Source: Candidatus Enterococcus huntleyi
GTDB taxonomy: Bacteria > Bacillota > Bacilli > Lactobacillales > Enterococcaceae
Direction: 5' to 3'
Length of the DNA stretch: 64,000 bases
Assembly: GCF_009933175.1 (NCBI RefSeq)
Contig: NZ_MAEJ01000012.1
Coordinates: 1 to 64,000 of the forward strand
Under the pieces are notes generated by a model, which was given only the letters and a program-made list of their open reading frames with translations, ran no database searches and was not told the DNA's origin. Below, piece after piece: positions 37,232-58,449 of the stretch; within the stretch, counting starts at the first letter, position 1; every line of letters starts with the position of its first letter. The position numbers and the translations under genes are program-made.

Positions 37232-37267
37232 AACAGCCTCCAATTCAATGAAGATGGAGGCTGTTTT
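37232..37267. terminator. Bidirectional terminator
   Basis: AACAGCCTCCA pairs with TGGAGGCTGTT across a 12-base loop, between converging units. Confidence 0.8.
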
Positions 37268-37722
37268 CAGATATTCAATTTTCTGTCGGCGATGGCATCG
37301 GTCAGTGTTTTGGAGAAGTTTAACTGCATCTCTCTGCCAAGTTTATCCGCCCATTTGGGAATAGTTAGAGTTTTCTTTACAGGCTCTTGGCTACCTAAGT
37401 ATTGGGAAACATCAACAGTAACCATTGATTTAAATGATTTTTCGGTATCAAACACTGTCTCAACCTCTTGGTCATTTTTTAATGGATGATTAGCTATAAG
37501 CGACAGTCTATTAATTGAGGAAGGTGTAGGGATTTCACGACCGTTTTCAATCGTATCGGCCAAAACCATTCCTAACCAATCGGAAGCCATGCACATTGCA
37601 TCCGGAATATCTATACCCTGTGTTCCTGCTTGACCTGAAAAATCAGGGAATGAAACAAAGAATTTTGCATCAACATCGTCGCTATCATCATAATAGAAAA
37701 GAGCGGGATAACTAACTAACAT
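37267..37722 (-). CDS. HicB-family antitoxin
   Basis: A 151-residue protein whose N-terminal half has the HicB partial RNase-H-like fold: YPALFYYDDSDDVDAKFFVS, then FPDFSGQAGTQGIDIPDAM, with the acidic stretch typical of Firmicute HicB. The C-terminal segment (TLTIPKWADKLGREMQLNFS) is a DNA-binding ribbon-helix-helix or HTH part. HicB neutralises the HicA mRNA interferase and represses the operon. The partner gene just upstream is deleted internally, so this is an orphan antitoxin. AGGAGG precedes the start. Confidence 0.85.
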   Translation of the reverse strand: MLVSYPALFYYDDSDDVDAKFFVSFPDFSGQAGTQGIDIPDAMCMASDWLGMVLADTIENGREIPTPSSINRLSLIANHPLKNDQEVETVFDTEKSFKSMVTVDVSQYLGSQEPVKKTLTIPKWADKLGREMQLNFSKTLTDAIADRKLNI

Positions 37723-38341: not shown

Positions 38342-39046
38342 TTACAGATAATATTTAAATAAATCAGGTAAGTCGACACGTACTAATTCTTCTGAGATGA
38401 GTACCAATTGATTACTGGAATCGTAGACGGTTCCAGCATGATGAATGACCGAAATGCCGCTTTGAACATTGAAGAGTTTGGCTTGCTCTTGTGTTAGTTG
38501 GCTGATTGACACATGGTTCATTCCTTTATATTCAGGTTCGATACCTTGGGTTTGAAGAAGTTCGTACAGAGAACCGTTTAGCTTATTTTCTAATAAAAAA
38601 TGAAAAGTATTAGGGAAAAAAGTATGCTCTAGCATAATTACGACACCATCAATTTTTCTAAGTCGTTCAATTTTTATCAGATTATCTGTTGAAAAAAATT
38701 GCGCATATTCTTGCGGGACTGGACTGTAGTCAGCAGATAAAACTTCTGAGCTGAGTTTTTTTCCTTGCTCTAAGCAAAGCTGTGTTAAAGAGAGTGTTTT
38801 TTGGCGATGCACCTTATTTTTTACAAAGGTTCCTTTACCATGAAGGCGGGTTAAATAATCTTCGTCGACTAGTTCATCTAATGCTTTACGTACAGTGATT
38901 CTACTGACATTGAATTCTTTTTGAAACTGCGCTTCGGAGAGTAACTTATCCCCTGGACGGAGCTCTTTTGTTTCAATTTGTCGTAGAATTGTTTCTTTTA
39001 TTTGTAGATATAGTGGCTTTTTTGTATCCACTAAATGTTTATTCAT
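38342..39046 (-). CDS. GntR/UTRA-family regulator of the deglycase locus
   Basis: A 234-residue regulator: N-terminal winged helix of the GntR type (PGDKLLSEAQFQKEFNVSRI, then TVRKALDELVDEDYL) and a C-terminal UTRA ligand domain (about 90-230). B. subtilis FrlR, which controls the fructosamine genes, has the same architecture. It is divergent from a FrlB-like gene. Two inverted 17-bp sites lie between the genes, one next to each promoter. Its ligand is probably a phosphorylated sugar-amine. Confidence 0.88.
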   Translation of the reverse strand: MNKHLVDTKKPLYLQIKETILRQIETKELRPGDKLLSEAQFQKEFNVSRITVRKALDELVDEDYLTRLHGKGTFVKNKVHRQKTLSLTQLCLEQGKKLSSEVLSADYSPVPQEYAQFFSTDNLIKIERLRKIDGVVIMLEHTFFPNTFHFLLENKLNGSLYELLQTQGIEPEYKGMNHVSISQLTQEQAKLFNVQSGISVIHHAGTVYDSSNQLVLISEELVRVDLPDLFKYYL

Positions 39047-39095
39047 CTTTAATCACCGTCCTGCTTTCTATTATAAATAATATATATTGACAATT

Positions 39096-39168
39096 CAACT
39101 ATAGTATAAGTTTTGGCTAGTTGTTATAAAGATGTGTTGACTAAGTATCGCAAGTTGTACTATACTTG
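39096..39168. promoter_or_regulatory. Two inverted 17-bp GntR operators and sigma-A promoter
   Basis: CAACTATAGTATAAGTT (39096-39112) and, in opposite orientation, CAAGTATAGTACAACTT (39168-39152) match at 14 of 17 bases. The second overlaps the TATACT -10 (39161-39166) of a promoter with TTGACT at 39137-39142. This predicts repression of the deglycase gene and autoregulation of the GntR gene. Confidence 0.75.
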
Positions 39169-39205
39169 TATTGTTTTTAAGAATATTAATTAGGAGGTTC
39201 ATCTT

Positions 39206-40189
39206 ATGAATTATCAAGAAATGGTCAGAGAAATAAACGATAGCAAACAAGAGATTGGTGGTATTAAGCAAATAGTTTGGATAGCTGCGGGAGGGAGTCA
39301 TGGTGGTTTTTATCCGGCTCACTATTTTTTGGATCAAGAAGCTACGACGATTCGTTCAAAAAATATAACAAGTAATGAATTTGTTAAAGCACCGCCAGCT
39401 TTTGTAGGAGAAAATACGGTTGCTGTTATTTGTTCTATGAGAGGGACTGCTGAAACAATTGAAGCGGCAAAAGTTGCAAAAAATTTGGGTGCTACAACGA
39501 TTGCTTTGTACGTAGATGAGTCAGAATTGACAGAAATCTGTTCCTATAAAATAGCTTATGAGTCTTTGGCAATCGATGAGAGTGATTTTTCAAAAACGAA
39601 TTCAGCATATGGTTTACTGTTGGCAATGTTGTTAATGGATGAGGTAGAAGGGTATCCGCATATGCAAACCGCTCTAGCAGAATTTGCTAAAGTAGATGCA
39701 GTGTATAAACAAGCAGCTTACGATATTCGACCTAGAGCAATCAAGTGGGGACTTCAAAATCGTGAATCTAAGTCTATCCATGTCATGGGGAGCGGTCCAA
39801 CCTTTGGTGCGGCCTACATTTTCTCCATTTGTAATGTGATGGAGATGTTACAAATCGATTCACCAACTGTTAATAGCTGTGATTTCTTCCATGGACCTTT
39901 TGAGGTGATCAATGAGGAGACTTCTGTATTTTTAATCATCGGTCAAGGTAGAAGTCGTTCAAATGATGAACGTGCCGCTCGATTCCTCCAAGAATTTGGT
40001 GGGCGAAAAGTCTTTACACTTGATGCATTAGAAGTTGGTATTGGCCAGTTTGATGATCAAGTAAGTGAATATTTCAATCATTTAATTCTTGCTCCTATTT
40101 TAAATAATGTCTTTATGAGAGAGCTGGCTTATCAAATTAAAAAAGACTACAATACGCGTACGTATATGTGGAAAGCTGCTTACGAATAA
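39206..40189 (+). CDS. SIS-domain deglycase of the FrlB/FraB type (first copy)
   Basis: A 327-residue double-SIS enzyme. FrlB/FraB-type deglycases split a 6-phosphofructose-amine into glucose 6-phosphate and the amine using a Glu/His pair 16 residues apart. Here Glu213 (VMEML) and His229 (FFHGP) occupy those places. The first SIS has AAGGSHGGFYPAHYF and CSMRGTAETIEAA. It has its own promoter with a GntR operator and is followed by a terminator, so it is controlled separately from the PTS genes. It is more divergent from FrlB than the second copy, for instance SCDFFHGP in place of SGEFxHGP. Confidence 0.82.
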   Translation: MNYQEMVREINDSKQEIGGIKQIVWIAAGGSHGGFYPAHYFLDQEATTIRSKNITSNEFVKAPPAFVGENTVAVICSMRGTAETIEAAKVAKNLGATTIALYVDESELTEICSYKIAYESLAIDESDFSKTNSAYGLLLAMLLMDEVEGYPHMQTALAEFAKVDAVYKQAAYDIRPRAIKWGLQNRESKSIHVMGSGPTFGAAYIFSICNVMEMLQIDSPTVNSCDFFHGPFEVINEETSVFLIIGQGRSRSNDERAARFLQEFGGRKVFTLDALEVGIGQFDDQVSEYFNHLILAPILNNVFMRELAYQIKKDYNTRTYMWKAAYE

Positions 40190-40205
40190 AAGGTTAGCAT
40201 GAGAG

Positions 40206-40275
40206 AAACGCTAAAAGCTTGCAAAGAATCAACGATAGTACATGTTGATTGGCGCAAATCTTTTAGCGTTTTTTG
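40206..40275 (+). terminator. Terminator after the first deglycase gene
   Basis: AAACGCTAAAAG pairs with CTTTTAGCGTTT, followed by Ts; the loop itself holds a small helix. Confidence 0.75.
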
Positions 40276-40312
40276 ATGGTTTGAGTTCAAAATTGAAGAC
40301 TGTATTTTTATT

Positions 40313-40357
40313 CAACACTTGCTATCCACACTGTTACATATATTTTTGAAAGTGTTG
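40313..40357. promoter_or_regulatory. Inverted repeat, probable activator site for the PTS operon
   Basis: CAACACTT (40313-40320) and AAGTGTTG (40350-40357) form an inverted repeat 54 bp upstream of the sigma-54 promoter. This is the position expected for the enhancer bound by the LevR-type activator encoded downstream. Confidence 0.5.
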
Positions 40358-40410
40358 AGATGGGTTTCAAAAGCCTTATGAAATAAGAAGTTTATAGCGA
40401 TTTTAAAAAT

Positions 40411-40426
40411 TGGCACGGTTTTTGCA
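40411..40426 (+). promoter_or_regulatory. Sigma-54 promoter of the first PTS operon
   Basis: TGGCACGGTTTTTGCA matches the -24/-12 consensus TGGCAC-N5-TTGCW exactly, 38 bases before the EIIA start codon. Confidence 0.92.
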
Positions 40427-40463
40427 TATTAATAAAGTGTAAGTTGAATGAGGAGGATAGCGA

Positions 40464-40883
40464 ATGAACAAGATTATTTTAGCAAGCCATGGAGAATTAT
40501 CTCAAGGGATGAAGCAAACGGCTTCGATGATTATTGGAGATGCTGGCAATATTTTTGCAGTTTCTGCATTCCGAGATGAAGATGAACCTATAAAAAATCA
40601 AGTAGAAAATTTATTAGCGAATATTGGAGATGAAAATGTCTATATTATGACAGATATTTTTGGTGGCAGTGTCAATAATGATTTATTGCAAGTCCAACAA
40701 TTGCATCCGGGAATTCATTTATTAGCCGGAATGAATTTACCATTAGTCATCTCAATTGCCACACAGATATCAGCCGTTTCATCTGAGCAGATGGCAAACA
40801 TTATTGAAGAAAGTCGTCAAGGGGTCATTGACTGTAAACAATTATTAACGACAAATATGAGTATTGGAGGAGACGATTTATGA
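40464..40883 (+). CDS. Mannose-family PTS EIIA component
   Basis: A 139-residue EIIA of the mannose superfamily. The phosphorylated histidine is His9 in IILASHGELSQGM; MTDIFGGSVNND is the second conserved loop. It accepts phosphate from HPr and passes it to EIIB. First gene of the operon behind the sigma-54 promoter. In E. faecium and Salmonella a similar stand-alone set (GfrA-D) takes up fructoselysine and glucoselysine. Confidence 0.93.
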   Translation: MNKIILASHGELSQGMKQTASMIIGDAGNIFAVSAFRDEDEPIKNQVENLLANIGDENVYIMTDIFGGSVNNDLLQVQQLHPGIHLLAGMNLPLVISIATQISAVSSEQMANIIEESRQGVIDCKQLLTTNMSIGGDDL

Positions 40884-41350
40884 TTAAATTAGCCCGTATT
40901 GATTATCGCCTGTTACATGGACAGGTAGTATTTTCTTGGACCAAGACTTTAGGAATTAATCGAATTATCGTGGTCAATCATGAAGCAGCAACAGATGAAT
41001 TTAAGAAGATGTCTTTAAATCTAGCAAAACCTACGGGAGTTAAATTAAACATTTTCACCGTTGAAGAAGCGTTAAGCAAGATGGAAAAAGTTGAACAGTT
41101 AAAAGAGAACATTATGATGATTTTTGGTAATACTAAAGAAACATTAGCTTTTTGTAAAGTATACTCAAAAATTCCCGAAATCAATTATGGTGGAATTCCT
41201 AAAAGCGGCGAAGCTAAACAGTTTGGTAGTGCAATCTTTCTGAATGAAGAAGAGCAAAACGAAGCGCGCGCGTTGAAGGAAATGGGTGTAAATCAATACA
41301 TACAACAGGTACCAACCTCTAAATCAGAGGATCTTAATAAATTACTTTAG
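40880..41350 (+). CDS. Mannose-family PTS EIIB component
   Basis: A 156-residue EIIB with the active histidine His13 in RIDYRLLHGQVVFSW, followed by INRIIVVNHEAATDEFKKM. It phosphorylates the sugar during transport through EIIC/EIID. The start overlaps the EIIA stop by four bases (ATGA), so translation is coupled. Confidence 0.93.
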   Translation: MIKLARIDYRLLHGQVVFSWTKTLGINRIIVVNHEAATDEFKKMSLNLAKPTGVKLNIFTVEEALSKMEKVEQLKENIMMIFGNTKETLAFCKVYSKIPEINYGGIPKSGEAKQFGSAIFLNEEEQNEARALKEMGVNQYIQQVPTSKSEDLNKLL

Positions 41351-41365
41351 AAGGAGGGTTTTAAA

Positions 41366-42151
41366 ATGTTGGTTCAATCGATAGTTTTAGGGTTGATCGG
41401 TGTATTTGCGATGTTGGATTCCCGTTTACTAGGCCGTTTGAATTTTGAACGTCCGTTGATTGTCGGGACGATGGTCGGGTTAGCATTAGGTGATTTGGAA
41501 AAGGGTCTATTGGTGGGAGCGTCTATTGAGTTAATTTCATTAGGTGTTGTGCAAGTCGGAGCGGCTGTACCTGCAGATATGACATTAGGCGCAGTTATCG
41601 CTACAGCTTTTGCAATTTTATCTGGTTCAAATGCAGAAACTGCTTTGACAATCGCCATTCCAATCGCAGTTTTAGGTCAGTTGTTAGGTATTCTGATGAG
41701 AACAGTTTTAGCAAGTTTAACGCACAGAGGGGACTTGTACATTCAGGAAGGTAAATTCAAAAAAGCACAGCATATACATATTGTGTGGGGAACGATTTTG
41801 TACTCATTAATGTATTTTGTACCGATTTTCTTAGCTATTTATTTTGGAACAGATTTAGTGAAATCAATTGTTGAAGCAATTCCTGAATGGGTAACTAATG
41901 GATTAAACTTAGCAAGTAAGATTTTGCCTGCCTACGGGTTTGCACTATTACTTCAAACAATGTTAACGAAGAAAATGATGGCTTTCTTATTCTTAGGGTT
42001 CTTGATTACCGCTTATTCTGGATTAGGCATTACAGGGGTAGCTTTGTTCGCTTGTATTGTAGCTTTTGTAATGTATCAAATTGAAACAGCAAAATCTGGT
42101 GGTGGGGGTAATGGCCCTATGCAAGAACCAGATCCATTAGATGATTTATAA
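41366..42151 (+). CDS. Mannose-family PTS EIIC component
   Basis: A 261-residue membrane protein with the EIIC-Man sequence pattern: LGLIGVFAMLDSRLLGRLNF, VGLALGDLEKGLLVGASIEL and VPADMTLGAVIATAFAIL. About eight membrane segments. With EIID it makes the sugar channel. AAGGAGG precedes the ATG. The C-terminus is a glycine-rich tail ending EPDPLDDL, also seen in the ManM-type paralogue at 57.6 kb. Confidence 0.92.
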   Translation: MLVQSIVLGLIGVFAMLDSRLLGRLNFERPLIVGTMVGLALGDLEKGLLVGASIELISLGVVQVGAAVPADMTLGAVIATAFAILSGSNAETALTIAIPIAVLGQLLGILMRTVLASLTHRGDLYIQEGKFKKAQHIHIVWGTILYSLMYFVPIFLAIYFGTDLVKSIVEAIPEWVTNGLNLASKILPAYGFALLLQTMLTKKMMAFLFLGFLITAYSGLGITGVALFACIVAFVMYQIETAKSGGGGNGPMQEPDPLDDL

Positions 42152-42168
42152 AAAGGAGGGACTACAAA

Positions 42169-42984
42169 ATGACAAAAGAAAAAGATTCAAATAAATTAAA
42201 ATATTGGCAGTTTTTCTGGCGTTCATGGGCGATTCAAGACTCTTGGAATTATGAACGTGCGATGAACATGGGTTTCTTGTACGGGATAGCTCCGACTTTA
42301 GATCGTATATATAGTGATCCAAAAGACGAAGAATTGAAAAAAGAAGCGTATCAACGTCACATGTTGTATTACAACTGTACGCCACAAACGAGTGCATTCG
42401 TATTAGGCTTAACAGCTTCGATGGAAGAGCAATACTACGAAGATCAAGAAGGTTTCAATCCAGAAACAATCAGCTCAGTTAAAACTTCTTTAATGGGTCC
42501 TTTGTCTGGTATTGGTGATTCGTTCTTCCAGGGGACAGTTCGTGTGTTAGCGTTTGGATTAGGGATTAACTTAGCTCAACAAGGGAGTATATTAGGCCCG
42601 ATTTTGGCGATGGTTATCTCGTTTGTACCATCTTTCTTAGTCACCTACTATGGTGGGAAATTTGGCTATAACATGGGGAATAAGTATTTAACAAAATTAT
42701 ACGAAGGCGGTTTGATGGACCGCGTAATGTACGTTTGCTCGATTATTGGTTTGATGGTTATCGGAGCAATGATTGCCAGCATGATCGGTATTACGACACC
42801 GTTAACATTTGGTGAAACATTCGTTTTACAAGATGTCTTAGATACAATTATGCCGCAAATGTTACCTCTAGGGTTGACGATGCTTATGTATTGGTTGTTG
42901 CAAAAGAAAGTCAATACTAGTGTTATGTTGTTAATTTGTATTGTAGGCGGATTAGTTTTAAGTGCATTAGGAATTTTTGTTTAA
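42169..42984 (+). CDS. Mannose-family PTS EIID component
   Basis: A 271-residue membrane protein of the EIID-Man family: RSWAIQDSWNYERAMNMGFL at the start, MGPLSGIGDSFFQGTVRVL in the centre and three to four terminal membrane helices. It starts 17 bases after EIIC with AAGGAGG. EIID is specific to mannose-class PTSs, which also serve as phage and class IIa bacteriocin receptors. Confidence 0.92.
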   Translation: MTKEKDSNKLKYWQFFWRSWAIQDSWNYERAMNMGFLYGIAPTLDRIYSDPKDEELKKEAYQRHMLYYNCTPQTSAFVLGLTASMEEQYYEDQEGFNPETISSVKTSLMGPLSGIGDSFFQGTVRVLAFGLGINLAQQGSILGPILAMVISFVPSFLVTYYGGKFGYNMGNKYLTKLYEGGLMDRVMYVCSIIGLMVIGAMIASMIGITTPLTFGETFVLQDVLDTIMPQMLPLGLTMLMYWLLQKKVNTSVMLLICIVGGLVLSALGIFV

Positions 42985-43074
42985 CTAGTTAGTTAGAAAT
43001 GGATTATTCTTTATCATGGGGTAATTGATTTCTCTAAATAAAAAATTGGAAAAACTCAGGAGGAATTGTAAATA

Positions 43075-44052
43075 ATGAATTCAACAATGGGACCAAAAGA
43101 AATTATCAAAGAGATTGTAGCAAAAACTGACGTAAAACATGTTATTTTCGTCGGCTGCGGGGCATCTAAAGCAGATCTTTATCCAGCAAAATACTTTTTA
43201 GATCAAAACGCAAGCCAATTGCGTATTAGCCACTACACAGCCAACGAATTTAACTTTGCAACACCAGCATCAGTCAACGAAAATGCGGTAGTTATCTCGG
43301 CATCTCTTGGAGGTACGACTCCAGAAACAGTCGAAGCAAATGCAGTTGCTAAAGCGAAAGGCGCTACAGTTATTAGTTTAACACGAGTTGTTGATTCAGC
43401 GTTAACAAAAGATGCAGATTATGTAATTTATCATGGTTTTGCTGAAAACTACGCAACAAAATTAGAAAAGACTGGTTATTGTTTACAACTGGCTGTTGAG
43501 CTATTAAATCAAGTAGAAGGCTATGCTCATTATGATAAAATGATGGCTGGATTTGATGTTATTTACAAACTGTCACAAGAAAGTGCAGAATCAGCTCGTA
43601 AAGTCGCAAAACAGTTTGCAGAACGCTTTAAAGATGAAAAAGTTGTTTATGTAATGAGTAGTGGTGCGACACATGAAGTTGCTTACTCTAGTTCAATTTG
43701 TTTAATGATGGAAATGCAATGGATTAACTCAGGTACTTTCCATGCAGGAGAGTTCTTCCATGGACCATTCGAAATTGTTGATAAAGATGTACCATTTATC
43801 TTATTAATGAACGATGGTAAAACACGTAGCATTGATTCTCGTGCATTAGCGTTTTTAGATCGCTTTGATGCCAAAACAGAAGTGGTTGATGCATTGGATT
43901 ATGGTTTATCGTCACATGTGGCTGAAGAAGTTGTTGATTACTTCAACCCATTTGTCATCACAGCTGTCTTCCGTGTGTATGCAGAAGAGTTGTCTTATGC
44001 AAGAGAGCATCCATTAACTAAACGTCGTTACATGTGGAAACTTTCTTACTAA
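43075..44052 (+). CDS. SIS-domain deglycase of the FrlB/FraB type (second copy)
   Basis: A 325-residue double-SIS enzyme, last gene of the PTS operon. It matches FrlB/GfrF closely: CGASKADLYPAKYFLDQ, SASLGGTTPETVEANAVAK and the catalytic block with Glu213 (MMEMQ) and His229 in AGEFFHGPFEIVDKDVPF. It should convert the imported 6-phospho fructosamine into glucose 6-phosphate plus an amine. The GlmS-like second enzyme (GfrE) found in E. faecium gfr operons is not seen here; both SIS proteins are of the FrlB type. AGGAGG precedes the start. Confidence 0.88.
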   Translation: MNSTMGPKEIIKEIVAKTDVKHVIFVGCGASKADLYPAKYFLDQNASQLRISHYTANEFNFATPASVNENAVVISASLGGTTPETVEANAVAKAKGATVISLTRVVDSALTKDADYVIYHGFAENYATKLEKTGYCLQLAVELLNQVEGYAHYDKMMAGFDVIYKLSQESAESARKVAKQFAERFKDEKVVYVMSSGATHEVAYSSSICLMMEMQWINSGTFHAGEFFHGPFEIVDKDVPFILLMNDGKTRSIDSRALAFLDRFDAKTEVVDALDYGLSSHVAEEVVDYFNPFVITAVFRVYAEELSYAREHPLTKRRYMWKLSY

Positions 44053-44064
44053 TCTGAGAATGAT

Positions 44065-44149
44065 TTGAAAAAACTAAGGCCTTTGTCTTGGTTTTTTCAA
44101 ACATTGTAAAAGTTGTATTCTAGGGCTAGCTAAACTTAGCCCTTTTTTT
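44065..44149 (+). terminator. Tandem terminators after the PTS operon
   Basis: TTGAAAAAACTAAGGC pairs with its complement to 44100, and a second stem (AGGGCTAG / CTTAGCCC, 44122-44142) ends in seven Ts. Confidence 0.75.
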
Positions 44150-44235
44150 GCAAAAAAAGACTGCCATTTATGGACGAAATGTTTTACAGTATAAGTGAAG
44201 GTACATGAAAAAACGATTAAAAGTAGGTGAGAAGG

Positions 44236-46965
44236 ATGAAAAAGGAACTAGATGAATACTTGTATGAATGGACTATTAATCTTAGTAATGAATCAAAGGA
44301 CCGTCTTTCTGCGCATGAAATTGGCGAAGCATTGAAATTGACTCGTAGTACCGTGAGTAGCTACTTAAATCAAGCAGTCCGTGAAGGTGAATTAGTCAAA
44401 ATAAAGAGTTACCCAGTCTTGTTTTTACATAAACGAGCATTAGAGGCTGCAAAATTTACTGTCGATAAAAACGAATATTTGTCGTTAGATGAGTTAATGT
44501 CAGAAGGTAAAAATCATGCTTTGGCAGAAATTATCGGAGCGACTGGCAGTTTGAAAGAAGCTATTGATCAGATTAAAACCGCTGTACTATATCCTCATAA
44601 TGGGTTGCCGATTCTCTTGATGGGAATGAGTGGATCAGGAAAAACATTTTTGGCTGAACGAATTCATCAATATGCTATAGAAGAGCAAGTCATTACAAGT
44701 GATGCGCCATTTATTTCTTATAATTGTGCGCAATACTATAATAATCCGGAGTTGCTGTCTTCTGCATTATTTGGTCATACCAAAGGGGCTTTTACCGGAG
44801 CGGATCAGACACATTATGGCCTAATTGAAAAGGCGCATGGCGGAATCTTATTTTTAGACGAGGTTCATCGATTAAGTGAAGAAGGACAAGAAAAATTGTT
44901 CACGTTTATGGATACAGGTGAATTTTCACCTATGGGAGATACAAGTATTCGTCAACGAGCAGATGTGCGTTTAATTTTTGCAACAACTGAAAATGTCTAC
45001 TCGACTTTTTTGCCAACTTTTTTGCGTAGATTACCGGTTATTGTCAATCTACCGAAGTTTCAACATCGACCTCAGTCTGAACGCTTGAGCTTGATTGATG
45101 CGTTCTTTATTGCTGAAAGTAATATTTTGTCAAAAGAATTGCAAGTTTCTTCTCAGTTAGTTGATTTTCTGTTGAATAGTGATTTAGAAGGTAATGTTGG
45201 GAAAATTAAGAATATAATTAAATACGCTTGCGGTAGTGCCTATGTTCATCAGAAACAAGAGATAAGTATTCAAGTTCGGTTGCGTGATTTACCGTTAGAA
45301 TTTAGTCTGAAATTTAAGGAACAATTTAGTAAGCCGAAGAAGAAGCTTCCTAATCGGCGCTATTTACCGAATACTTCTCAACAAATATATCTTGAAAGTA
45401 AACAGACACAACTGCTGAAAGAATTTTTTTGGGAGATGCTAACCGAATTTAAAAAGGTGCAACAGCAAATATCTTCATCAACAAAATTTATCGAAGCTAT
45501 GGCAAATAGAGTCACTCAGATTATGGATGAGTTTATGTTCCAAGAAACTTATCAAAAAGAGGAATCATTCTACTCGGTGTTGACCTATCATATTCGACAA
45601 ACGATTGATATGATGTATGAAAATTATGGATTTGAACAAGATGGTCATCGAGTTGTGTCTCTAGCGAGTTATCTTTATTTAAAGGATAACGCAGATATTT
45701 TAGGTAGCCATTATGAATGGCAAGAGCAAAAGACGAGTTTGTTAGAATTTTTGGATACTTCTTTGGAGAATACTTACTGGTACGCAAAAAAGCTACTTTC
45801 TCATTTATCTCAGCAATTAGATCAAGATCTTTTTGAAGAGGACATTGTATTTGTTGCTTTTTATTTTTATAGTTTACACATTAATGATTTACCTAGCGAT
45901 GTTAAAAGTATTGTCCTAGCGCATGGTTACTCGACAGCTAGTAGCTTGGCGAATGTCGTCAATCGAATGCTGGAGAAAAATGTTTTTCAAGCCTATGATA
46001 TGCCAATTAATATCACTTTAGATAAAGTCGAATCACAGATTATACGCTATCTAAATGAATATCGTACAGATGCAGGCTTAATTCTTTTAGTAGATATGGG
46101 TTCTTTTAACCAGTTAGGTGAGCGGTTGGCTAAACATATCCAAAGCCCGATGATGATTATTGATAATGTCAGTACTCCACTTGTTTTGGAAGTGGGTAGT
46201 CATATTGTACAGGGAGCTAGTATTACTGAAATTTATGAGGCAATTTCGGTTGAGAAACGAATTCAAAAGCAGTTGATTATTCCAGAAGTCAACAAGAAAA
46301 AAGCAATCATTACTTGTTGTTATACAGGGTTAGGAAGTGCGACGCAGATTCAGGAAATTCTTCTGAAATGTTTAGGCGAATCGGCTAAAGAGTTGGTTAT
46401 TTTGCCGTATGACTACAAAAAGTTATTGCAAAATAAGTTATATGAGGCGCCTTTTCAGCTATATGATGTGTTGATGATTGTAGGAACAGAAAGTCCTAAA
46501 ATCCATCAAGTGCCTTATATTAGTGTCGACAAATTAATCAATGGGGAAGCTGTTGAAGAGTTTGCTAATCTTTTGCATTCAGAAATATCTTTAGATGCTC
46601 AAATACTTAAGAGTCAGCTTATTTTCAATTTTTCAATTAACAAAATTGTTGAAAATTTGACAATTTTAGATGCGAATAAGGTACTGCTTTTAGTTCAACG
46701 TGCGGTTAAGGAAATGGAAGAGTTGATGGGCATCGATTTTTCGAATAATCAACTATTTCTCTTATATATGCATTGTTGTTCCATGATTGAACGTATTTTA
46801 CGAAAAGAAACAGTGGATGAACAAGAGGATATTGATGACTACATTCAACAAGAAGGCAAAAACATGGAATTAATTCATAAAGCTTTTCAGGAAGTCGAGA
46901 AAGAATATACAATCGAATTGCCGATATTAGAATTACGATTGTTAAATGACATTGTAAAGGATTAA
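44236..46965 (+). CDS. LevR-type sigma-54 activator of the Amadori-type PTS operon
   Basis: A 909-residue activator. Order: N-terminal winged helix (SAHEIGEALKLTRSTVSSYL, about 17-40), AAA+ sigma-54 interaction domain with Walker A GMSGSGKTF, GAFTGADQT and LDEVHRL (about 100-330), first PRD (about 460-560), EIIA-Man-like module (LAHGYSTASSLANVV near 565), EIIB-like module (ITCCYTGLGSATQIQEIL near 700) and a last PRD (about 800-905). This is the LevR/ManR plan: the PRDs and EII-like modules sense PTS phosphorylation. Only a sigma-54 promoter upstream of the EIIA gene is nearby, so this operon is the likely target. ATG at 44236 is preferred over GTG at 44227. Confidence 0.93.
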   Translation: MKKELDEYLYEWTINLSNESKDRLSAHEIGEALKLTRSTVSSYLNQAVREGELVKIKSYPVLFLHKRALEAAKFTVDKNEYLSLDELMSEGKNHALAEIIGATGSLKEAIDQIKTAVLYPHNGLPILLMGMSGSGKTFLAERIHQYAIEEQVITSDAPFISYNCAQYYNNPELLSSALFGHTKGAFTGADQTHYGLIEKAHGGILFLDEVHRLSEEGQEKLFTFMDTGEFSPMGDTSIRQRADVRLIFATTENVYSTFLPTFLRRLPVIVNLPKFQHRPQSERLSLIDAFFIAESNILSKELQVSSQLVDFLLNSDLEGNVGKIKNIIKYACGSAYVHQKQEISIQVRLRDLPLEFSLKFKEQFSKPKKKLPNRRYLPNTSQQIYLESKQTQLLKEFFWEMLTEFKKVQQQISSSTKFIEAMANRVTQIMDEFMFQETYQKEESFYSVLTYHIRQTIDMMYENYGFEQDGHRVVSLASYLYLKDNADILGSHYEWQEQKTSLLEFLDTSLENTYWYAKKLLSHLSQQLDQDLFEEDIVFVAFYFYSLHINDLPSDVKSIVLAHGYSTASSLANVVNRMLEKNVFQAYDMPINITLDKVESQIIRYLNEYRTDAGLILLVDMGSFNQLGERLAKHIQSPMMIIDNVSTPLVLEVGSHIVQGASITEIYEAISVEKRIQKQLIIPEVNKKKAIITCCYTGLGSATQIQEILLKCLGESAKELVILPYDYKKLLQNKLYEAPFQLYDVLMIVGTESPKIHQVPYISVDKLINGEAVEEFANLLHSEISLDAQILKSQLIFNFSINKIVENLTILDANKVLLLVQRAVKEMEELMGIDFSNNQLFLLYMHCCSMIERILRKETVDEQEDIDDYIQQEGKNMELIHKAFQEVEKEYTIELPILELRLLNDIVKD

Positions 46966-46973
46966 GGTGGAAA

Positions 46974-47627
46974 ATGAAAAAGGCAGTTATTTTCGATATG
47001 GATGGTGTACTGATTGATAGTGAACATTTTTACTTTGAACGTAGAATGGCGTTCTTTCGTGAAAAAGGACTGGTCCCTGGGTCGACGGACTTAGAGGATT
47101 ACGTAGGGAAAACCGAGAAACAGTTGTGGGAAACTTTGGTGCCAAATGATGAAGAGTTACGGAAATCATTGTATCCAGATTACGTAATTTATAGAGAATT
47201 ACATCCAATTGATTTCACCGTGGCACTAAGAAAGCAGGTGCCAGAAGTTTTAGGAAATTTAACTAGTCGAGGGATACTTGTGGGTTTAGCTTCTTCCTCT
47301 CCACGCAATGAAATAGATGAAATGCTCACACAGTGTCAGCTCACTCAGTACTTTTCTTTTGTTATCAGTGGAGAAGAGGTACAAGAAAGTAAGCCCAATC
47401 CGGCTATCTATTTACGTAGTATAGAGGCTCTAGATTGTGAGGGCTACATTGCTGTTGAGGATTCAACATTTGGTATTGCTGCGGCAAAAGCTGCAGGACT
47501 CTATACCGTTGCTTTAAAGCAAGCTTTTGAAATCGATCAAGAAGCAGCAGATGTTCGAATCTCTGAATTAAGTGAGCTTTGTCATTTGACAGAAAATGAA
47601 CGTATCTTTACACATAGAAACGGATGA
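46974..47627 (+). CDS. HAD-family phosphatase, beta-phosphoglucomutase-like
   Basis: A 217-residue HAD hydrolase with FDMDGVLIDSEHFYFERR (nucleophile Asp), LASSSPRNEI, the ESKPNPAIYL lysine and VEDSTFGIAAAKAAG. Members dephosphorylate sugar phosphates or isomerise beta-glucose 1-phosphate. It follows the activator gene by eight bases, suggesting a role in the same pathway, for example removing phosphate from dead-end sugar-amine phosphates. A terminator follows after 130 bases. Confidence 0.88.
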   Translation: MKKAVIFDMDGVLIDSEHFYFERRMAFFREKGLVPGSTDLEDYVGKTEKQLWETLVPNDEELRKSLYPDYVIYRELHPIDFTVALRKQVPEVLGNLTSRGILVGLASSSPRNEIDEMLTQCQLTQYFSFVISGEEVQESKPNPAIYLRSIEALDCEGYIAVEDSTFGIAAAKAAGLYTVALKQAFEIDQEAADVRISELSELCHLTENERIFTHRNG

Positions 47628-47759: not shown

Positions 47760-47802
47760 AGCGCTAAGTTCAGATCGTTGGACTTAGTGCTATTCTTTTT
47801 TT
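47760..47802 (+). terminator. Terminator downstream of the HAD gene
   Basis: AGCGCTAAGTTC pairs with GACTTAGTGCT, followed by TTCTTTTTTT. Confidence 0.8.
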
Positions 47803-52887: not shown

Positions 52888-55731
52888 TTGCCGAAACGAA
52901 TCGACCGAATCTATGCCTATGTAAAAGAGCAGACGGAACAGCTGTCTGAAGAGGCTATACAAAATGGTGCAGGGGTGACCACAGCGGAAATTGCTGACGT
53001 CCTGTCTATTCAGAGAACGAATAGTAGTAAAGACCTGAATCAGCTGGTAAAAGAGGGTAAGTTAACAAAACTATCTGGCCGTCCAGTACGCTATCGAGTC
53101 ACTAAAGGTTGGCAAGAATTGCCGGCAAAAAAATATGTACCAAGTTATATGGAGACCCCAAAAGAGAAAAAAGAGCAAAAAATACGACAAAACCAGTCAG
53201 TCATGGCGAGTAAGGATATCTTTTCGCGGATTATTGGTTCTACTGGCAGTATGCGAAATTCGATTGAGCAGGCCAAAGCGGCGGTTCTTTACCCACCTAA
53301 AGGCTTGAATTGTTTAATCACTGGACCGACTGGATCCGGGAAGACGTATTTTGCCCATGCGATTTTTCAATATGCGAAAGTTAATCAAGTGATTGCGCCG
53401 GAGAAAGAATTGATTGTCTTTAATTGTGCTGATTATGCCAATAATCCAGAGCTCTTGATGAGTCATCTGTTTGGCTATGTTAAAGGGGCTTTTACTGGGG
53501 CGGATAGTGAGAAGGCTGGGATTATTGATGAAGCGGATGGTGGGATGCTTTTCTTAGATGAAATTCATCGATTGCCACCTGAAGGGCAAGAAATGATCTT
53601 TTATTTCATGGATCATGGGACTTATAGCCGACTAGGTGAGACGAGTAAAACGCATCAGGCAGCTGTCCGAATTATCGGCGCGACAACCGAGGATCCTAAT
53701 TCGACTTTATTGGATACCTTTGTTCGTCGAATTCCGATTAATATTCAATTGCCGCCATTTGCCAAACGGCCGGCTTCTGAGAAAGTTGACTTGGTCAAAG
53801 TGATGGTGGCCCAAGAGGCTAATCGAATCGAACGCCGAATTTCATTGACTGAAGATGTGGTTAAAGCGTTGATTGGTAGCGTGACCTATGGCAATATTGG
53901 TCAACTAAAATCGAATATTCAGCTGGTTTGCGCGCGCGGTTTTCTGAATCATATGCAAAAGGAAGAGATTCCGATTACGGTCAACGATTTGCCAGAAGGA
54001 ATTCGAGCAGGGGTCATCCAATTGGCGAGTGATCGTGAGGCGTCGATGGAACTGGCTAAGGTCTTGGAGCCGACGATAGATATTTCTCCAAATGCGTCAA
54101 TCCTTGAAATACAATCAGATTCCTATGAGCTGCCGTACAATTTATACGATATTATTGGCGATAAGGCGACTTTATTAAAGTCAGATGGGCTAGATCAAGA
54201 AGCGATTAATCATTTTATTTCGACGGATATTAATATCCATTTGAAGTCATTTTATAAAGACCACGGGTTCTCATTTAATGCGGAAAATAAGTTATCTGAG
54301 TTTGTGGATCAGGCGATTATTGATGTCACTAGTCAGATTTATCAGCTGGTTAAAACAGAGCTGAATCATGAATATCAACAAAATTTCGTTTATGCTATGA
54401 GTTTGCATATTAGTTCGTTTTTGAAGAAAATTTATCTGGGTGAAGAGCGACACACCAATGATAATATCCGGGAAATGGCAGTGGATTTTCCAGAGGAATT
54501 CGAAATGGCTAAGAAAATCCGCCAATTTATTGCTGAACGCTTCCAAGTAACGATTCCTGAGAGTGAAGATTACTATTTGACGGTCTTGCTAGTTTCATTG
54601 AGAGATGATCAGTCGGTCGGGCGCGTGGGCGTGATCGTGGCTTCACATGGCAACAGTACGGCTAGCAGCATGGTCCAAGTAGTTAAGCAATTATTAGATG
54701 TGGATAAAATTATTGCGGTGGACATGCCGTTAGATATGCATCCGAAAACAGCCTTAGAGCGCATTGAGCATGCGGCCTTGCAGCTGGATGAAGGGAATGG
54801 CGTGATGTTATTGGTGGATATGGGCTCCTTAGCAACCTTTAGCGAAAAAATTCAGCGAGAGACTGGTGTGCCAGTCAGAACGATTGATATGGTCACGACT
54901 TCTTTGGTCTTAGAGACCGTCCGCAAAGCTTCTGTTATGGGGGCTGACTTAGATAATCTGTATGATTCTTTAAAGAATTTTAGAGGTTATGCGGATGTCA
55001 GTCCAGGAAAAATTGAGAAGCGTCTGGGCAATAATCAAGCTATTTTAGCCATTTGTGCTTCTGGCGAAGGAACGGCGCAAAAGATTAAAGAAATTATTGA
55101 TGAGGCCTTGGTAAAACGTCAGAATGAGTCGATTGTGGTTGTGCCTTTATCTGTTTTAGAAGTCAAAGAGAAGATGGCTACTATTCAAGAAAGCTATGAT
55201 ATCATTGCAACGACGGGGATTATTGATCCCAAAATTCAAGCGCCGTTTATTCCACTGGAGCGTTTTATTGATCATGACGTTGATCATATCTTAGACCACC
55301 TGCTATTAGAGGATGAACTGGAAGAGTTGACCGAAATGATCGATGTTTCAGTTAATGAAGAGCAGGCGCAAACAATCTGTGTGAATTATATGGTGGAAAG
55401 TTTTACTTTTATTAATCCTACCAAGCTGATTCATCCGTTGTGGCAATTTACGATGAATATAGCAGAGAAGATTGGTTTAGATTCTCCTAGATATGCGTTT
55501 CAAATTAATTTAACTATGCATTTGGCGGGGATGATGGAACGTATCTTACTTGGTGATGTATTAACAGTGGAAGAAGAAGATTTAGAGGTCATGAGAGGGC
55601 AAGCAATCTATCAAACAGTGCAGCAGGCTGTGACTAAATTAGAGGAACAAGTCCGACTTTCGATTCCTTCTGCGGAAGTGTATTATTTGATGCAATCAAT
55701 TACCAATCAGCAGATGAAAAAGATACAGTAA
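52888..55731 (+). CDS. manR: ManR, sigma-54 activator of the mannose PTS
   Basis: A 947-residue LevR-family activator. N-terminal winged helix (TTAEIADVLSIQRTNSSKDL, about 30-50), AAA+ domain with GPTGSGKTYF, GAFTGADSE and LDEIHRLP (about 125-360), first PRD (about 460-570), EIIA-Man-like module (VIVASHGNSTASSMVQVVKQ near 595), EIIB-like module (ILAICASGEGTAQKIKEII near 725) and a final PRD. It starts with TTG after GGGGGG. It lies directly upstream of the PTS genes, as in Listeria and E. faecalis. It probably binds the GATACACT repeats beyond its own stop codon. Confidence 0.95.
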   Translation: MPKRIDRIYAYVKEQTEQLSEEAIQNGAGVTTAEIADVLSIQRTNSSKDLNQLVKEGKLTKLSGRPVRYRVTKGWQELPAKKYVPSYMETPKEKKEQKIRQNQSVMASKDIFSRIIGSTGSMRNSIEQAKAAVLYPPKGLNCLITGPTGSGKTYFAHAIFQYAKVNQVIAPEKELIVFNCADYANNPELLMSHLFGYVKGAFTGADSEKAGIIDEADGGMLFLDEIHRLPPEGQEMIFYFMDHGTYSRLGETSKTHQAAVRIIGATTEDPNSTLLDTFVRRIPINIQLPPFAKRPASEKVDLVKVMVAQEANRIERRISLTEDVVKALIGSVTYGNIGQLKSNIQLVCARGFLNHMQKEEIPITVNDLPEGIRAGVIQLASDREASMELAKVLEPTIDISPNASILEIQSDSYELPYNLYDIIGDKATLLKSDGLDQEAINHFISTDINIHLKSFYKDHGFSFNAENKLSEFVDQAIIDVTSQIYQLVKTELNHEYQQNFVYAMSLHISSFLKKIYLGEERHTNDNIREMAVDFPEEFEMAKKIRQFIAERFQVTIPESEDYYLTVLLVSLRDDQSVGRVGVIVASHGNSTASSMVQVVKQLLDVDKIIAVDMPLDMHPKTALERIEHAALQLDEGNGVMLLVDMGSLATFSEKIQRETGVPVRTIDMVTTSLVLETVRKASVMGADLDNLYDSLKNFRGYADVSPGKIEKRLGNNQAILAICASGEGTAQKIKEIIDEALVKRQNESIVVVPLSVLEVKEKMATIQESYDIIATTGIIDPKIQAPFIPLERFIDHDVDHILDHLLLEDELEELTEMIDVSVNEEQAQTICVNYMVESFTFINPTKLIHPLWQFTMNIAEKIGLDSPRYAFQINLTMHLAGMMERILLGDVLTVEEEDLEVMRGQAIYQTVQQAVTKLEEQVRLSIPSAEVYYLMQSITNQQMKKIQ

Positions 55732-55742
55732 TACGATAGAAT

Positions 55743-55840
55743 GATACACTAATTGACACACTTAAGAAAAACGATACACTAGAAATAGTGTATCGTTTTC
55801 TTTTTATCAGTGGGCTCTAGGTAAAATAAAAGAGTGTATC
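55743..55840. promoter_or_regulatory. GATACACT repeat array, probable ManR enhancer
   Basis: GATACACT at 55743-55750 and 55773-55780, variant GACACACT at 55755-55762, and the inverted AGTGTATC at 55787-55794 and 55833-55840. The pair at 55773/55787 also forms a hairpin with T run (to 55805) that may end manR transcription. The array lies 11-108 bp upstream of the sigma-54 promoter. Confidence 0.7.
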
Positions 55841-55850
55841 ATTTGAAAGT

Positions 55851-55866
55851 TGGCATACTTCTTGCT
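55851..55866 (+). promoter_or_regulatory. Sigma-54 promoter of the mannose PTS operon
   Basis: TGGCATACTTCTTGCT fits the -24/-12 consensus with one change (T for C at the last GGCAC base). It lies 103 bases before the first PTS start codon. Confidence 0.88.
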
Positions 55867-55968
55867 TATTATAAGTGTGAACGCAGGAGGTGATTTTAGA
55901 GTCTAGAAGAACACAAAGGTTATCGAATCGTGTTCTGCTAGAAAGAACAATGAAGGAGGTCCGTCAAT

Positions 55969-56463
55969 ATGGGGATGGATATTCGTTTGGCTCGGATTGA
56001 TGATCGTTTGATTCATGGACAGGTGGCAACCGCGTGGTCAAAATCAACGGACATTAGTCGAATTCTCGTGGTCAGTGACGAGGTAGCACATGATGAGCTT
56101 CGAAAGTTTTTATTAAAAGAAGCTGCTCCACCAGGTATTAAGTCGAATGTAATCACAATCAAAAAAATGATTGAGGTCTACAATCACGACTTGTTTAATG
56201 GCATCAAGGTGATGTTGCTTTTCACTAATCCAGTAGATGTTGCTCAGTTAGTTCGTGCGGGTATCAAATTTTCGTCAATCAATATCGGTGGGATGCGTTT
56301 CACTGATGGGAAACGAATGATTACCAATTTTGTTTCGATTGATGAAACGGACATTGAAGCGTTTCGCTACTTAGATCAACAGGGTGTCGAGTTAGAAATC
56401 CGCAAGGTCCCGGCTGATCGCAAAGTCAATCTGATGGAGCTACTTCAAAAAGAGAAGAAGTGA
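55969..56463 (+). CDS. Mannose PTS stand-alone EIIB component
   Basis: A 164-residue EIIB with the active histidine His16 in RIDDRLIHGQVATAWSK and LVVSDEVAHDELRKFLLKEA. It duplicates the EIIB domain of the following EIIAB protein (VSDAVAKDDLRKKLIEQAAP). The same extra EIIB precedes the mpt genes in E. faecalis. AAGGAGG precedes the ATG. Its exact job next to the EIIAB protein is unclear. Confidence 0.92.
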   Translation: MGMDIRLARIDDRLIHGQVATAWSKSTDISRILVVSDEVAHDELRKFLLKEAAPPGIKSNVITIKKMIEVYNHDLFNGIKVMLLFTNPVDVAQLVRAGIKFSSINIGGMRFTDGKRMITNFVSIDETDIEAFRYLDQQGVELEIRKVPADRKVNLMELLQKEKK

Positions 56464-56583
56464 TAGCGCAGTATTTCGTAACTAAGCGATTACCGCGTTA
56501 GGCAATCTGCAATTATCTGTCGTTCATTATTATTTTTATGCGTTGTTGGAAAACAAAAAAGTAAGATTATAGGAGGTAAAAAC

Positions 56584-57576
56584 ATGGTAGGGATTATCCT
56601 TGCAAGTCATGGTGAATTCGCAAATGGCATTTTGCAATCAGGCTCAATGATTTTTGGCGAGCAAGAAAACGTAAAAGCTGTTACTTTGCAACCAAGCGAA
56701 GGTCCAGATGACTTAAAAGCCAAATTAGTAGCAGCAATCGACTCGTTTGATGATCAAGAAGAAGTCTTGTTCTTAGTCGATTTATGGGGCGGTACACCAT
56801 TCAATCAGGCCAATAGTTTATTCGAAGAACACAAGGACAAATGGGCAATCGTCGCAGGTATGAATTTACCGATGGTGATTGAAGCTTATTCTTCACGCTT
56901 CTCAATGAATTCAGCCCAAGAAATTGCGGCTCACATTCTTGAAACAGCAAAAGAAGGGGTTAAAGTAAAACCAGAAGAACTAGAACCAGCAGACACTGCC
57001 AAAGCAGCAGTAGTTGATAACCAACCAAAAGGCTCTTTAGCACCAGGAACAGTGGTTGGCGATGGCAAAATCAAAATTGTTCTCACACGTGTGGATTCTC
57101 GTTTACTTCACGGTCAAGTAGCAACTGCTTGGACAAAATCAGTGACTCCATCACGGATTATCGTCGTGTCAGATGCAGTAGCGAAAGATGATTTACGTAA
57201 GAAATTAATCGAGCAAGCAGCTCCTCCAGGTGTTAAAGCCAACGTCATTCCAGTTCAAAAAATGATTGAAGTCGCAAAAGATCCTCGTTTTGGTGGAACA
57301 AAAGCCTTGCTTTTATTCGAAAATCCAGAAGATGTTTTACGCGCAATCGATGGCGGCGTGCCTATCTCAGAAGTTAATGTTGGCTCAATGGCCCATTCTG
57401 TTGGTAAAGTAGTCGTAAGTAAAGTCTTGTCTATGGGTACTGAAAATGTTGAAACATTCGAAAAATTGAAGGAAAAAGGGGTTACCTTTGATGTCCGCAA
57501 AGTGCCGAATGATTCAAAAGACAACATGGATGAATTATTAAGAAAAGCGAAAGCTGAGTTAGCAAACGTCAAATAA
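56584..57576 (+). CDS. manL: Mannose PTS EIIAB component
   Basis: A 330-residue fusion: EIIA domain with His9 (IILASHGEFANGI), an alanine/proline-rich linker (about 137-158), and EIIB domain with His176 (VDSRLLHGQVATAW). It relays phosphate from HPr to incoming glucose or mannose. AGGAGG precedes the ATG. It is 120 bases after the stand-alone EIIB. Confidence 0.95.
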   Translation: MVGIILASHGEFANGILQSGSMIFGEQENVKAVTLQPSEGPDDLKAKLVAAIDSFDDQEEVLFLVDLWGGTPFNQANSLFEEHKDKWAIVAGMNLPMVIEAYSSRFSMNSAQEIAAHILETAKEGVKVKPEELEPADTAKAAVVDNQPKGSLAPGTVVGDGKIKIVLTRVDSRLLHGQVATAWTKSVTPSRIIVVSDAVAKDDLRKKLIEQAAPPGVKANVIPVQKMIEVAKDPRFGGTKALLLFENPEDVLRAIDGGVPISEVNVGSMAHSVGKVVVSKVLSMGTENVETFEKLKEKGVTFDVRKVPNDSKDNMDELLRKAKAELANVK

Positions 57577-57611
57577 ATGAAAAATTTAATTTAAAAAATA
57601 GGAGGCTTATC

Positions 57612-58430
57612 ATGTCTATTATATCAATAATATTAGTAGTGTTCGTTGCCTTTCTAGCGGGTATGGAAGGGATTTTAGATGAATTCCAATTCCATCAACC
57701 GTTAGTCGCATGTACATTAATCGGTCTAGTAACTGGGAATTTAACTGCAGGAATCATGCTAGGTGGGTCATTACAAATGATCGCGCTTGGTTGGGCAAAT
57801 ATCGGTGCTGCCGTAGCACCAGATGCTGCATTAGCGTCTGTTGCATCCGCAATTATTTTAGTCAAAGCATTAGGTACTGATAACATTTCTGTTCAATCAG
57901 CTATTACAACATCAATCGCTGTCGCTATTCCATTGGCTGTTGCTGGTCTATTCTTAACAATGATCGTTCGGACACTTGCTGTACCAATCGTTCACTTGAT
58001 GGATGCCGCAGCTGAAAAAGGAAATATTCGTCGAATTGAAGTTTTACACATTTTAGCCGTTTGTATGCAAGGGATTCGTATTGCGATTCCTGCTGGCGCA
58101 TTGCTGTTCATTCCAGCTCAAACCGTTCAAAGCTTCTTAGAATCAATGCCTGCTTGGTTAACTGATGGTATGGCAATTGGTGGGGGTATGGTGGTAGCCG
58201 TTGGGTATGCAATGGTTATTAACATGATGGCAACAAAAGAAGTTTGGCCTTTCTTCATTATCGGTTTTGTCGTGGCAGCTGTTACTCAATTGACCTTGAT
58301 TGCACTAGGCGCATTAGGTGTGGCTATGGCCTTAATTTACTTAAACTTATCTAAAATGGGTGGTTCAAGTAATGGCGGTGGCGGAAGCAACACTGGTGAT
58401 CCGCTTGGCGACATTCTAAACGACTATTAA
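57612..58430 (+). CDS. manM: Mannose PTS EIIC component
   Basis: A 272-residue membrane protein with VAFLAGMEGILDEFQFHQPL, IGLVTGNLTAGIMLGGSLQM and GWANIGAAVAPDAALASV, the recognised ManM pattern. It has a glycine/serine-rich C-terminal tail. Together with ManN it forms the glucose/mannose channel and the target of class IIa bacteriocins. Confidence 0.95.
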   Translation: MSIISIILVVFVAFLAGMEGILDEFQFHQPLVACTLIGLVTGNLTAGIMLGGSLQMIALGWANIGAAVAPDAALASVASAIILVKALGTDNISVQSAITTSIAVAIPLAVAGLFLTMIVRTLAVPIVHLMDAAAEKGNIRRIEVLHILAVCMQGIRIAIPAGALLFIPAQTVQSFLESMPAWLTDGMAIGGGMVVAVGYAMVINMMATKEVWPFFIIGFVVAAVTQLTLIALGALGVAMALIYLNLSKMGGSSNGGGGSNTGDPLGDILNDY

Positions 58431-58449
58431 TAAGAAGGAGGAGAAAAAA

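Follow-up and report, generated by a model that had tools for sequence, protein, structure and literature searches.

Gene content of the locus

Nine genes lie between positions 38342 and 47627 of the window, by which we mean the whole 64,000-nucleotide stretch of DNA that was analysed, in the order GntR (minus strand), SIS1, EIIA, EIIB, EIIC, EIID, SIS2, LevR-type activator and HAD. The GntR/UTRA regulator gene (38342-39046, minus strand; GntR and UTRA domains in Pfam) is divergent from SIS1 and falls just outside the interval 39096-47627, in which the other eight genes, all on the plus strand, are each intact at the place noted for them. The two SIS genes, SIS1 (39206-40189) and SIS2 (43075-44052), stand on either side of a mannose-family PTS made up of EIIA (40464-40883, His9 in ILASHGELS), EIIB of the sorbose subfamily (40880-41350, His13 in DYRLLHGQV), EIIC (41366-42151) and EIID (42169-42984), and the Pfam families SIS, EIIA-man, PTSIIB_sorb, EII-Sor and EIID-AGA each fit the assigned gene. 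The activator (44227-46965) combines Sigma54_activat, EIIA-man and PRD domains, and the HAD-family hydrolase (46974-47627, HAD_2) forms one unit with it. The first-pass annotation had named this same set of PTS, SIS and regulatory genes, and Pfam bears out every one of them. The host is a gut-type Enterococcus (Enterococcaceae), whose 3.49 Mb assembly comprises 32 contigs and has five EIID genes and a single RpoN gene.

The HAD hydrolase is probably a sugar-phosphate phosphatase, to judge from its sequence, and PTS-SIS2 loci retain its gene in Enterococcus, Pediococcus and Collinsella. Beta-phosphoglucomutase, the annotation carried by the Pediococcus copy, was rejected for the protein of this locus as its score lies under the cut-off of that family; the cap His of the Lactococcus enzyme is moreover a Tyr here.

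Two other features of the window may be recorded. A gene for a HicB-like antitoxin (PF15919) lies at 37267-37722, where an adjoining HicA is not obvious, and at 52888-59361 EIIB/C/D-like genes come after another LevR-size gene, a sigma-54-like site, TGGCATACTTCTTGCT, being present at 55851; this second region is probably the housekeeping mannose PTS and its activator.

Amadori compounds are amino acids bearing a sugar and occur, for example, in heated food. The known PTS-type Amadori system is gfr of E. faecium and Salmonella, an operon for the lysine adducts fructoselysine and glucoselysine. The host genome has a separate gfr-type operon of its own (L011:1806-9247; G000:C1, about 485800-493250), with a LevR-type activator, the sigma-54 site TGGCACGCGTCTTGCT, EIIABCD, a GfrE-like enzyme (43% identity to 2aml) and a GfrF-like enzyme (33% to 2a3n). 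Butyrate kinase- and dehydrogenase-like genes lie 3' of it.

Transcription units and regulatory sites

From the placement of terminators and promoters, the locus is predicted to be three transcription units, SIS1, EIIABCD-SIS2 under sigma-54 and LevR-HAD, and the single sigma-54 operon implied by the first-pass annotation did not hold. A rho-independent terminator after SIS1 (40206-40277, plus strand; 28-nt arms, 75% complementary, then a T run) stands between SIS1 and the sigma-54 promoter and so places SIS1 outside the sigma-54 unit; in aligned Enterococcus loci the same place holds a stem-loop and T run of different sequence. The activator gene and HAD probably form a separate third unit, because a second terminator (AGGGCTAGCTAAACTTAGCCCT followed by T7, 44122-44150, plus strand) lies between SIS2 and the activator gene and a stable stem is found there in homologous loci. 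A third terminator, a 14-pair stem with a T run, follows HAD (47760-47800, plus strand).

The promoter that had been called a perfect sigma-54 site is exactly that: TGGCACGGTTTTTGCA, at 40411-40426 on the plus strand and 38 bp upstream of EIIA, has zero mismatches and is the window's sole exact match. Nearly all of the loci tested have the site as well, 36-60 bp upstream of EIIA, and in two it is 154 bp away. Upstream of it, at 40312-40358 (plus strand), lies an inverted repeat, TCAACACTT...AAGTGTTGA, which is a candidate upstream activating sequence. The window has a single match to the pattern CAACACT-N(10-52)-AGTGTTG (chance expectation 0.02 per 64 kb), and the 1.37 Mb of loci that were scanned have 15, each of them just upstream of EIIA in a homologous operon. 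It is reduced to half-sites or absent in the homologous operons of G058, G104, G070, Pediococcus and G053, and it is absent from the host genome's own gfr-type operon. The CAACACT/AGTGTTG repeat is probably the binding site of the LevR-type activator.

As for the activator itself, it has an AAA+ domain with GAFTGA at residue 187, an EIIA-like domain with H566 and a C-terminal PRD with H849, the features of a LevR-type PRD activator, and neither His varies among eight relatives, of which Salmonella STM0571 is one. The protein is 36% identical to the gfr activator and 32% to STM0571; its closest named NCBIfam model is DagR, with a score under the DagR cut-off. Activators of the LevR-like kind are turned on through HPr phosphorylation near PRD1, whereas EII phosphorylation in PRD2 turns them off (PMC4987338).

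Between gntR and SIS1 there are two putative copies of a GntR operator. Copy 1, TTATACTATAGTTG (39096-39109, minus strand; one mismatch to the pattern), overlaps a sigma-70-like gntR promoter, TTGAAT-17-TATAAT (39070-39098, minus strand), that is assigned by its position, matches of 10/12 to the consensus such as this one occurring at chance density across the region. Copy 2, TTGTACTATACTTG (39155-39168, plus strand), overlaps the -10 box of the SIS1 promoter, TTGACT-18-TATACT (39137-39166, plus strand; 10/12), of which TTGAC and TA.AC are kept across Enterococcus loci. Together the copies make up an inverted repeat of 23 nt with 83% complementarity, and they are kept in the E. avium group, E. 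gilvus and E. florum; the regulator lies beside SIS1 in all E. avium-group loci, at 66-71% identity. Copy 2 is the sole perfect operator in the genome. These sites suggest that GntR probably represses SIS1 and its own gene. A role for GntR as shared regulator of all the units was considered and rejected, since the operator pattern is absent from the sigma-54 promoter and single-mismatch matches elsewhere in the genome are at the level of a reversed-pattern control.

Family and phylogeny of the two SIS enzymes

Among solved structures, both SIS proteins have their best sequence matches in FraB (9otj and others) and STM0572 (3fkj), followed by B. subtilis FrlB (3eua). The AlphaFold model of SIS1 (pLDDT 93.5) gave the same three as its closest neighbours in a fold search, with TM about 0.9, the structures named including 9otj (FraB), 9otu (FraB E214A) and 8glr (FrlB, 6-phosphofructose-lysine). 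Identity to Salmonella FraB is 47% for SIS2 and 37% for SIS1, and SIS2 is 44% identical to STM0572. Identity of the two to B. subtilis FrlB is 32-40% and falls to 17-24% with GfrF and E. coli FrlB, and neither reaches the cut-off of 430 of the NCBIfam E. coli FrlB equivalog NF008481 (SIS1 46.5 bits, SIS2 107.6 bits).

In trees the SIS1 and SIS2 families are separate from one another and lie inside the FraB/STM0572 clade (support 100/99, 100/100 and 99/100), with SIS2 within the FraB group at full support. Grouping with GfrF was rejected by the AU test for SIS1 (p = 0.027) and SIS2 (p = 0.0014), and grouping of SIS1 with GfrE/GlmS, the test being run on SIS1, was rejected at p = 0.0025. The first reading was thus right that the locus has no GlmS-like partner, and its label of 'FrlB-type' fails if taken in the sense of GfrF or E. 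coli FrlB. A grouping of B. subtilis FrlB with SIS1 and SIS2 to the exclusion of GfrF was obtained in one tree at 98/96, lacked support after long-branch rows were dropped and stood at 72/60 with reduced sampling; because the grouping depends on sampling, an alpha-clade that includes B. subtilis FrlB is not settled. Origin of the pair by recent tandem duplication was rejected, the AU test giving p 2e-5 for a sole-sister grouping of SIS1 and SIS2.

Both proteins have E213 and H229 at exactly the positions claimed for them, aligned with E214 and H230 of FraB and invariant in 25-27 relatives; E214 is the residue that the depositors of FraB changed in the E214A structure. The pair was discarded as evidence for a deglycase over GlmS, because E. 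coli GlmS and GfrE carry it too. The SIS1 proteins share two features, a phosphate loop shortened by one residue (SMRG-T.ET; SMRGTAET in this locus) and, at the catalytic Glu, EMLQ instead of EMQW, with LQ replacing QW. On phylogeny and residues together, SIS1 and SIS2 are predicted fructosamine-6-phosphate deglycases of the FraB clade that belong to two different old subfamilies.

This placement bears on two other readings of the locus. It might serve some other amino sugar or sugar acid, as the dga system serves D-glucosaminate, with the SIS proteins acting as isomerases or deaminases; DagR is the best-named model for the activator, and mannose-family PTS often serve amino sugars. We regard this as very unlikely, as both SIS proteins are near FraB and far from GlmD, NagB-II, AgaS and GlmS, and their subfamilies are also found with a FrlD-like kinase and a FrlC-like epimerase. 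It is unlikely, too, if to a lesser degree, that the locus serves epsilon-fructoselysine (and glucoselysine) as another gfr-like system, one in which SIS1 has replaced GfrE. Here the plan of the locus does match gfr (LevR-type activator, sigma-54 promoter, EIIABCD and two SIS genes), and SIS1 is paired with a gfr-like PTS in some Lachnospiraceae, but the AU tests reject both GfrE/GlmS and GfrF as partners of SIS1, the separate gfr-type operon of the genome already has GfrE- and GfrF-like enzymes, and the activator is just 36% identical to that of gfr, from which the upstream repeat is absent.

Distribution and gene context

The full nine-gene order recurs in E. florum, E. avium, E. raffinosus, E. 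malodoratus, others, and on the E. gilvus plasmid pCR1B, where IS1216 flanks the cluster. On a Pediococcus pentosaceus plasmid the order is GntR, SIS1, LevR, EIIABCD, SIS2, HAD, and in Collinsella, Atopobium fossor and other Coriobacteria it is SIS1, PTS, SIS2, HAD, with no LevR-type match found in these coriobacterial loci. E. faecium plasmids carry PTS-SIS2-LevR-HAD without GntR-SIS1; the plasmid records that match this core number 133 and are Enterococcus only, nearly all of them E. faecium and many from human isolates. No paper describing this operon, or a fructosamine PTS of Collinsella, came up in a literature search that took in few subscription journals.

The SIS2 family is present in 27 of 106 Enterococcaceae genomes (25 at >=77% identity, two at 52%). 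SIS1 occurs in 10 of these 27, the other 17 having SIS2 only, and in none of the 79 genomes that lack SIS2 (Fisher p 2.6e-7, with kinship among the genomes ignored). Across 11 loci SIS1 and SIS2 distances correlate (r = 0.89), and the pairing recurs in Enterococcus (E. avium group), on Pediococcus plasmids and in Coriobacteria.

Each enzyme is also found without the other. SIS2 is the sole deglycase in PTS-LevR-HAD operons of other Enterococcaceae, and a SIS2 relative of Liquorilactobacillus hordei is accompanied by an ABC importer and a PfkB kinase. SIS1 is the sole SIS enzyme in Lachnospiraceae such as Coprococcus comes, its neighbours there being a GntR/UTRA regulator, a PfkB/FrlD-like kinase, an ABC importer and a FrlC-like epimerase; in two other Lachnospiraceae it accompanies a gfr-like PTS, and in one of these two a HAD-like protein lies between them. 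Since SIS1 and SIS2 are each the sole SIS enzyme elsewhere, each subfamily alone appears to be the deglycase of some Amadori-type operon. The suggestion that one of the two enzymes may be a scavenger is weakened, because whole Amadori operons of the kinase type in Lachnospiraceae have SIS1 as their sole deglycase.

The same evidence bears on the reading in which SIS1 is a detoxification or overflow enzyme for the substrate of SIS2, induced through GntR when a toxic 6-phosphate builds up and adding nothing to the range of substrates. SIS1 is in its own GntR-linked unit, the phospho-intermediate of fra is toxic to Salmonella that lack FraB (PMC4941530; PMC12755824), a phosphorylated Amadori compound is the proposed effector of FrlR (PMC12632257), and a HAD phosphatase would follow the same logic. 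We nevertheless think it somewhat improbable, given that SIS1 serves alone in the Lachnospiraceae operons, that in G053 and G054 it lies directly 3' of SIS2 with no GntR match found beside it, and that the two subfamilies differ in the phosphate loop and beside the catalytic Glu.

Some homologous loci depart from the common plan. SIS2, SIS1, HAD and a distant GlmS-like third SIS gene stand in a row in G053 (L094:8837-12579), and G030 (L102:5041-7669) has its activator gene split over three reading frames, with PTS, SIS2, sigma-54 site and upstream repeat retained. G104 (L099:4352-16057) has tandem PTS-SIS clusters, in which GntR, a third FraB-related SIS gene and a PTS precede the PTS-SIS2-LevR-HAD core. 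In one Collinsella locus (L024:11224-12342) a DMT/EamA-type-like membrane protein, possibly an exporter of the released amino acid, is encoded between SIS1 and an EIIA-EIIB fusion gene.

Proposed function

We consider it likely that the locus serves the utilisation of fructosamines (Amadori compounds) by means of a PTS and two FraB-clade deglycases of different range, probably with alpha-glycated amino acids as substrates. This explanation draws on gene order, conserved sites, phylogeny, catalytic residues and repeated co-occurrence; the substrate, phosphorylation at C6, the product, the GntR effector and the role of HAD are what we infer. Counting against it are the altered phosphate loop and the LQ of SIS1, the scores of both SIS proteins under the FrlB cut-off and a sigma-54 promoter that lacks the GntR operator. 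The mannose-family PTS would import a fructosyl-amine and phosphorylate its sugar, presumably at C6, and SIS1 and SIS2 would cleave the 6-phosphate to glucose 6-phosphate and the free amine or amino acid, SIS2 acting as the core enzyme and SIS1 extending the range of substrates. The LevR-type activator, governed by PTS phosphorylation, would act at the CAACACT/AGTGTTG repeat to turn on the sigma-54 promoter of EIIABCD-SIS2, while the UTRA-GntR regulator would repress SIS1 and itself through the two operators and would probably be released by a phosphorylated intermediate. HAD is probably a relief phosphatase against build-up of phospho-intermediate; such a role, for HAD and for the GntR-linked SIS1, is plausible because the phospho-intermediate is toxic in Salmonella without FraB.

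The substrates are most likely alpha-glycated amino acids rather than epsilon-fructoselysine, which is presumably handled by the separate gfr-type operon. FraB acts on alpha-linked 6-P-fructose-aspartate (6-P-F-Asp), unlike epsilon-linked fructose-lysine (PMC9609667), and alpha-glycated amino acids are preferred by B. subtilis FrlB/FrlD (PMC12632257); it is on this activity, this preference and the gfr-type operon that the proposal is built. Since the grouping of FrlB in the trees depends on sampling, alpha-specificity is argued here from kinship with FraB, the identity figures and the spare gfr operon.

A bolder proposal, which we offer as a possibility short of an even chance, is that SIS1 represents a deglycase subfamily for a class of substrate new to bacterial enzymes, for example glycated peptides or those alpha-glycated amino acids that FraB and FrlB refuse. 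A promiscuous PTS would then feed two separately regulated deglycases, in a plasmid-borne module common to Bacillota and gut Coriobacteria. Two divergent deglycases in one cell offer a handle on the basis of amino-acid specificity among enzymes of this family. The form with both deglycases is found in E. avium-group species, on food Pediococcus plasmids and in many Collinsella genomes, with the core on 130-odd sequenced Enterococcus plasmids.

Comparison with known systems

The locus is real and well conserved, and its PTS with two FraB-clade deglycases is a variant of the known Amadori systems. It resembles gfr and fra and, on gene content and phylogeny, is a member of neither, because neither of its SIS proteins is of the GfrE or GfrF type and it is without the kinase, transporter and FraE of fra. 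The first-pass annotation had set it apart from E. faecium gfr as a sigma-54/LevR PTS locus of Amadori type, a view that is supported; the comparison needed the addition of the host genome's own gfr-type operon. Like gfr, the locus has a LevR-type activator and a sigma-54 promoter and joins EIIABCD to two SIS enzymes, but gfr has GfrF, of the epsilon-fructoselysine type, and the GlmS-like GfrE, whereas neither SIS1 nor SIS2 is of the GfrE or GfrF type and this locus adds a GntR-linked SIS1 unit and HAD. With Salmonella fra, the operon for fructose-asparagine, the likeness is in FraB, which shares the catalytic Glu/His and the fold of SIS1 and SIS2; fra has a transporter (FraA), a kinase (FraD), FraE and one FraB, and neither the gene list nor Pfam gave a FraA, FraD or FraE gene at this locus, which has a PTS and two deglycases instead. 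B. subtilis frlBONMD-frlP and E. coli frlABCD-R likewise have a fructosamine-6-phosphate deglycase and a GntR/UTRA-type regulator, but combine a single deglycase with an ABC importer or permease and the FrlD kinase. As known so far, alpha-glycated amino acids are taken up by ABC importers or permeases and phosphorylated by a kinase; the prediction from this locus is that a FraB-type substrate enters through a PTS.

On a Salmonella plasmid (NZ_CP149222.1, L114:56-4826) the STM0572 frame is truncated beside an IS5 transposase gene, and an STM0571-type activator gene adjoins. The locus also resembles the orphan Salmonella system STM0577-0572, which is sigma-54-dependent with the LevR-like STM0571 (PMC3844500; PMC4987338). 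It too joins a sigma-54/LevR-type PTS to a FraB-clade SIS gene, STM0572, and the present locus supplies a concrete guess at its substrate.
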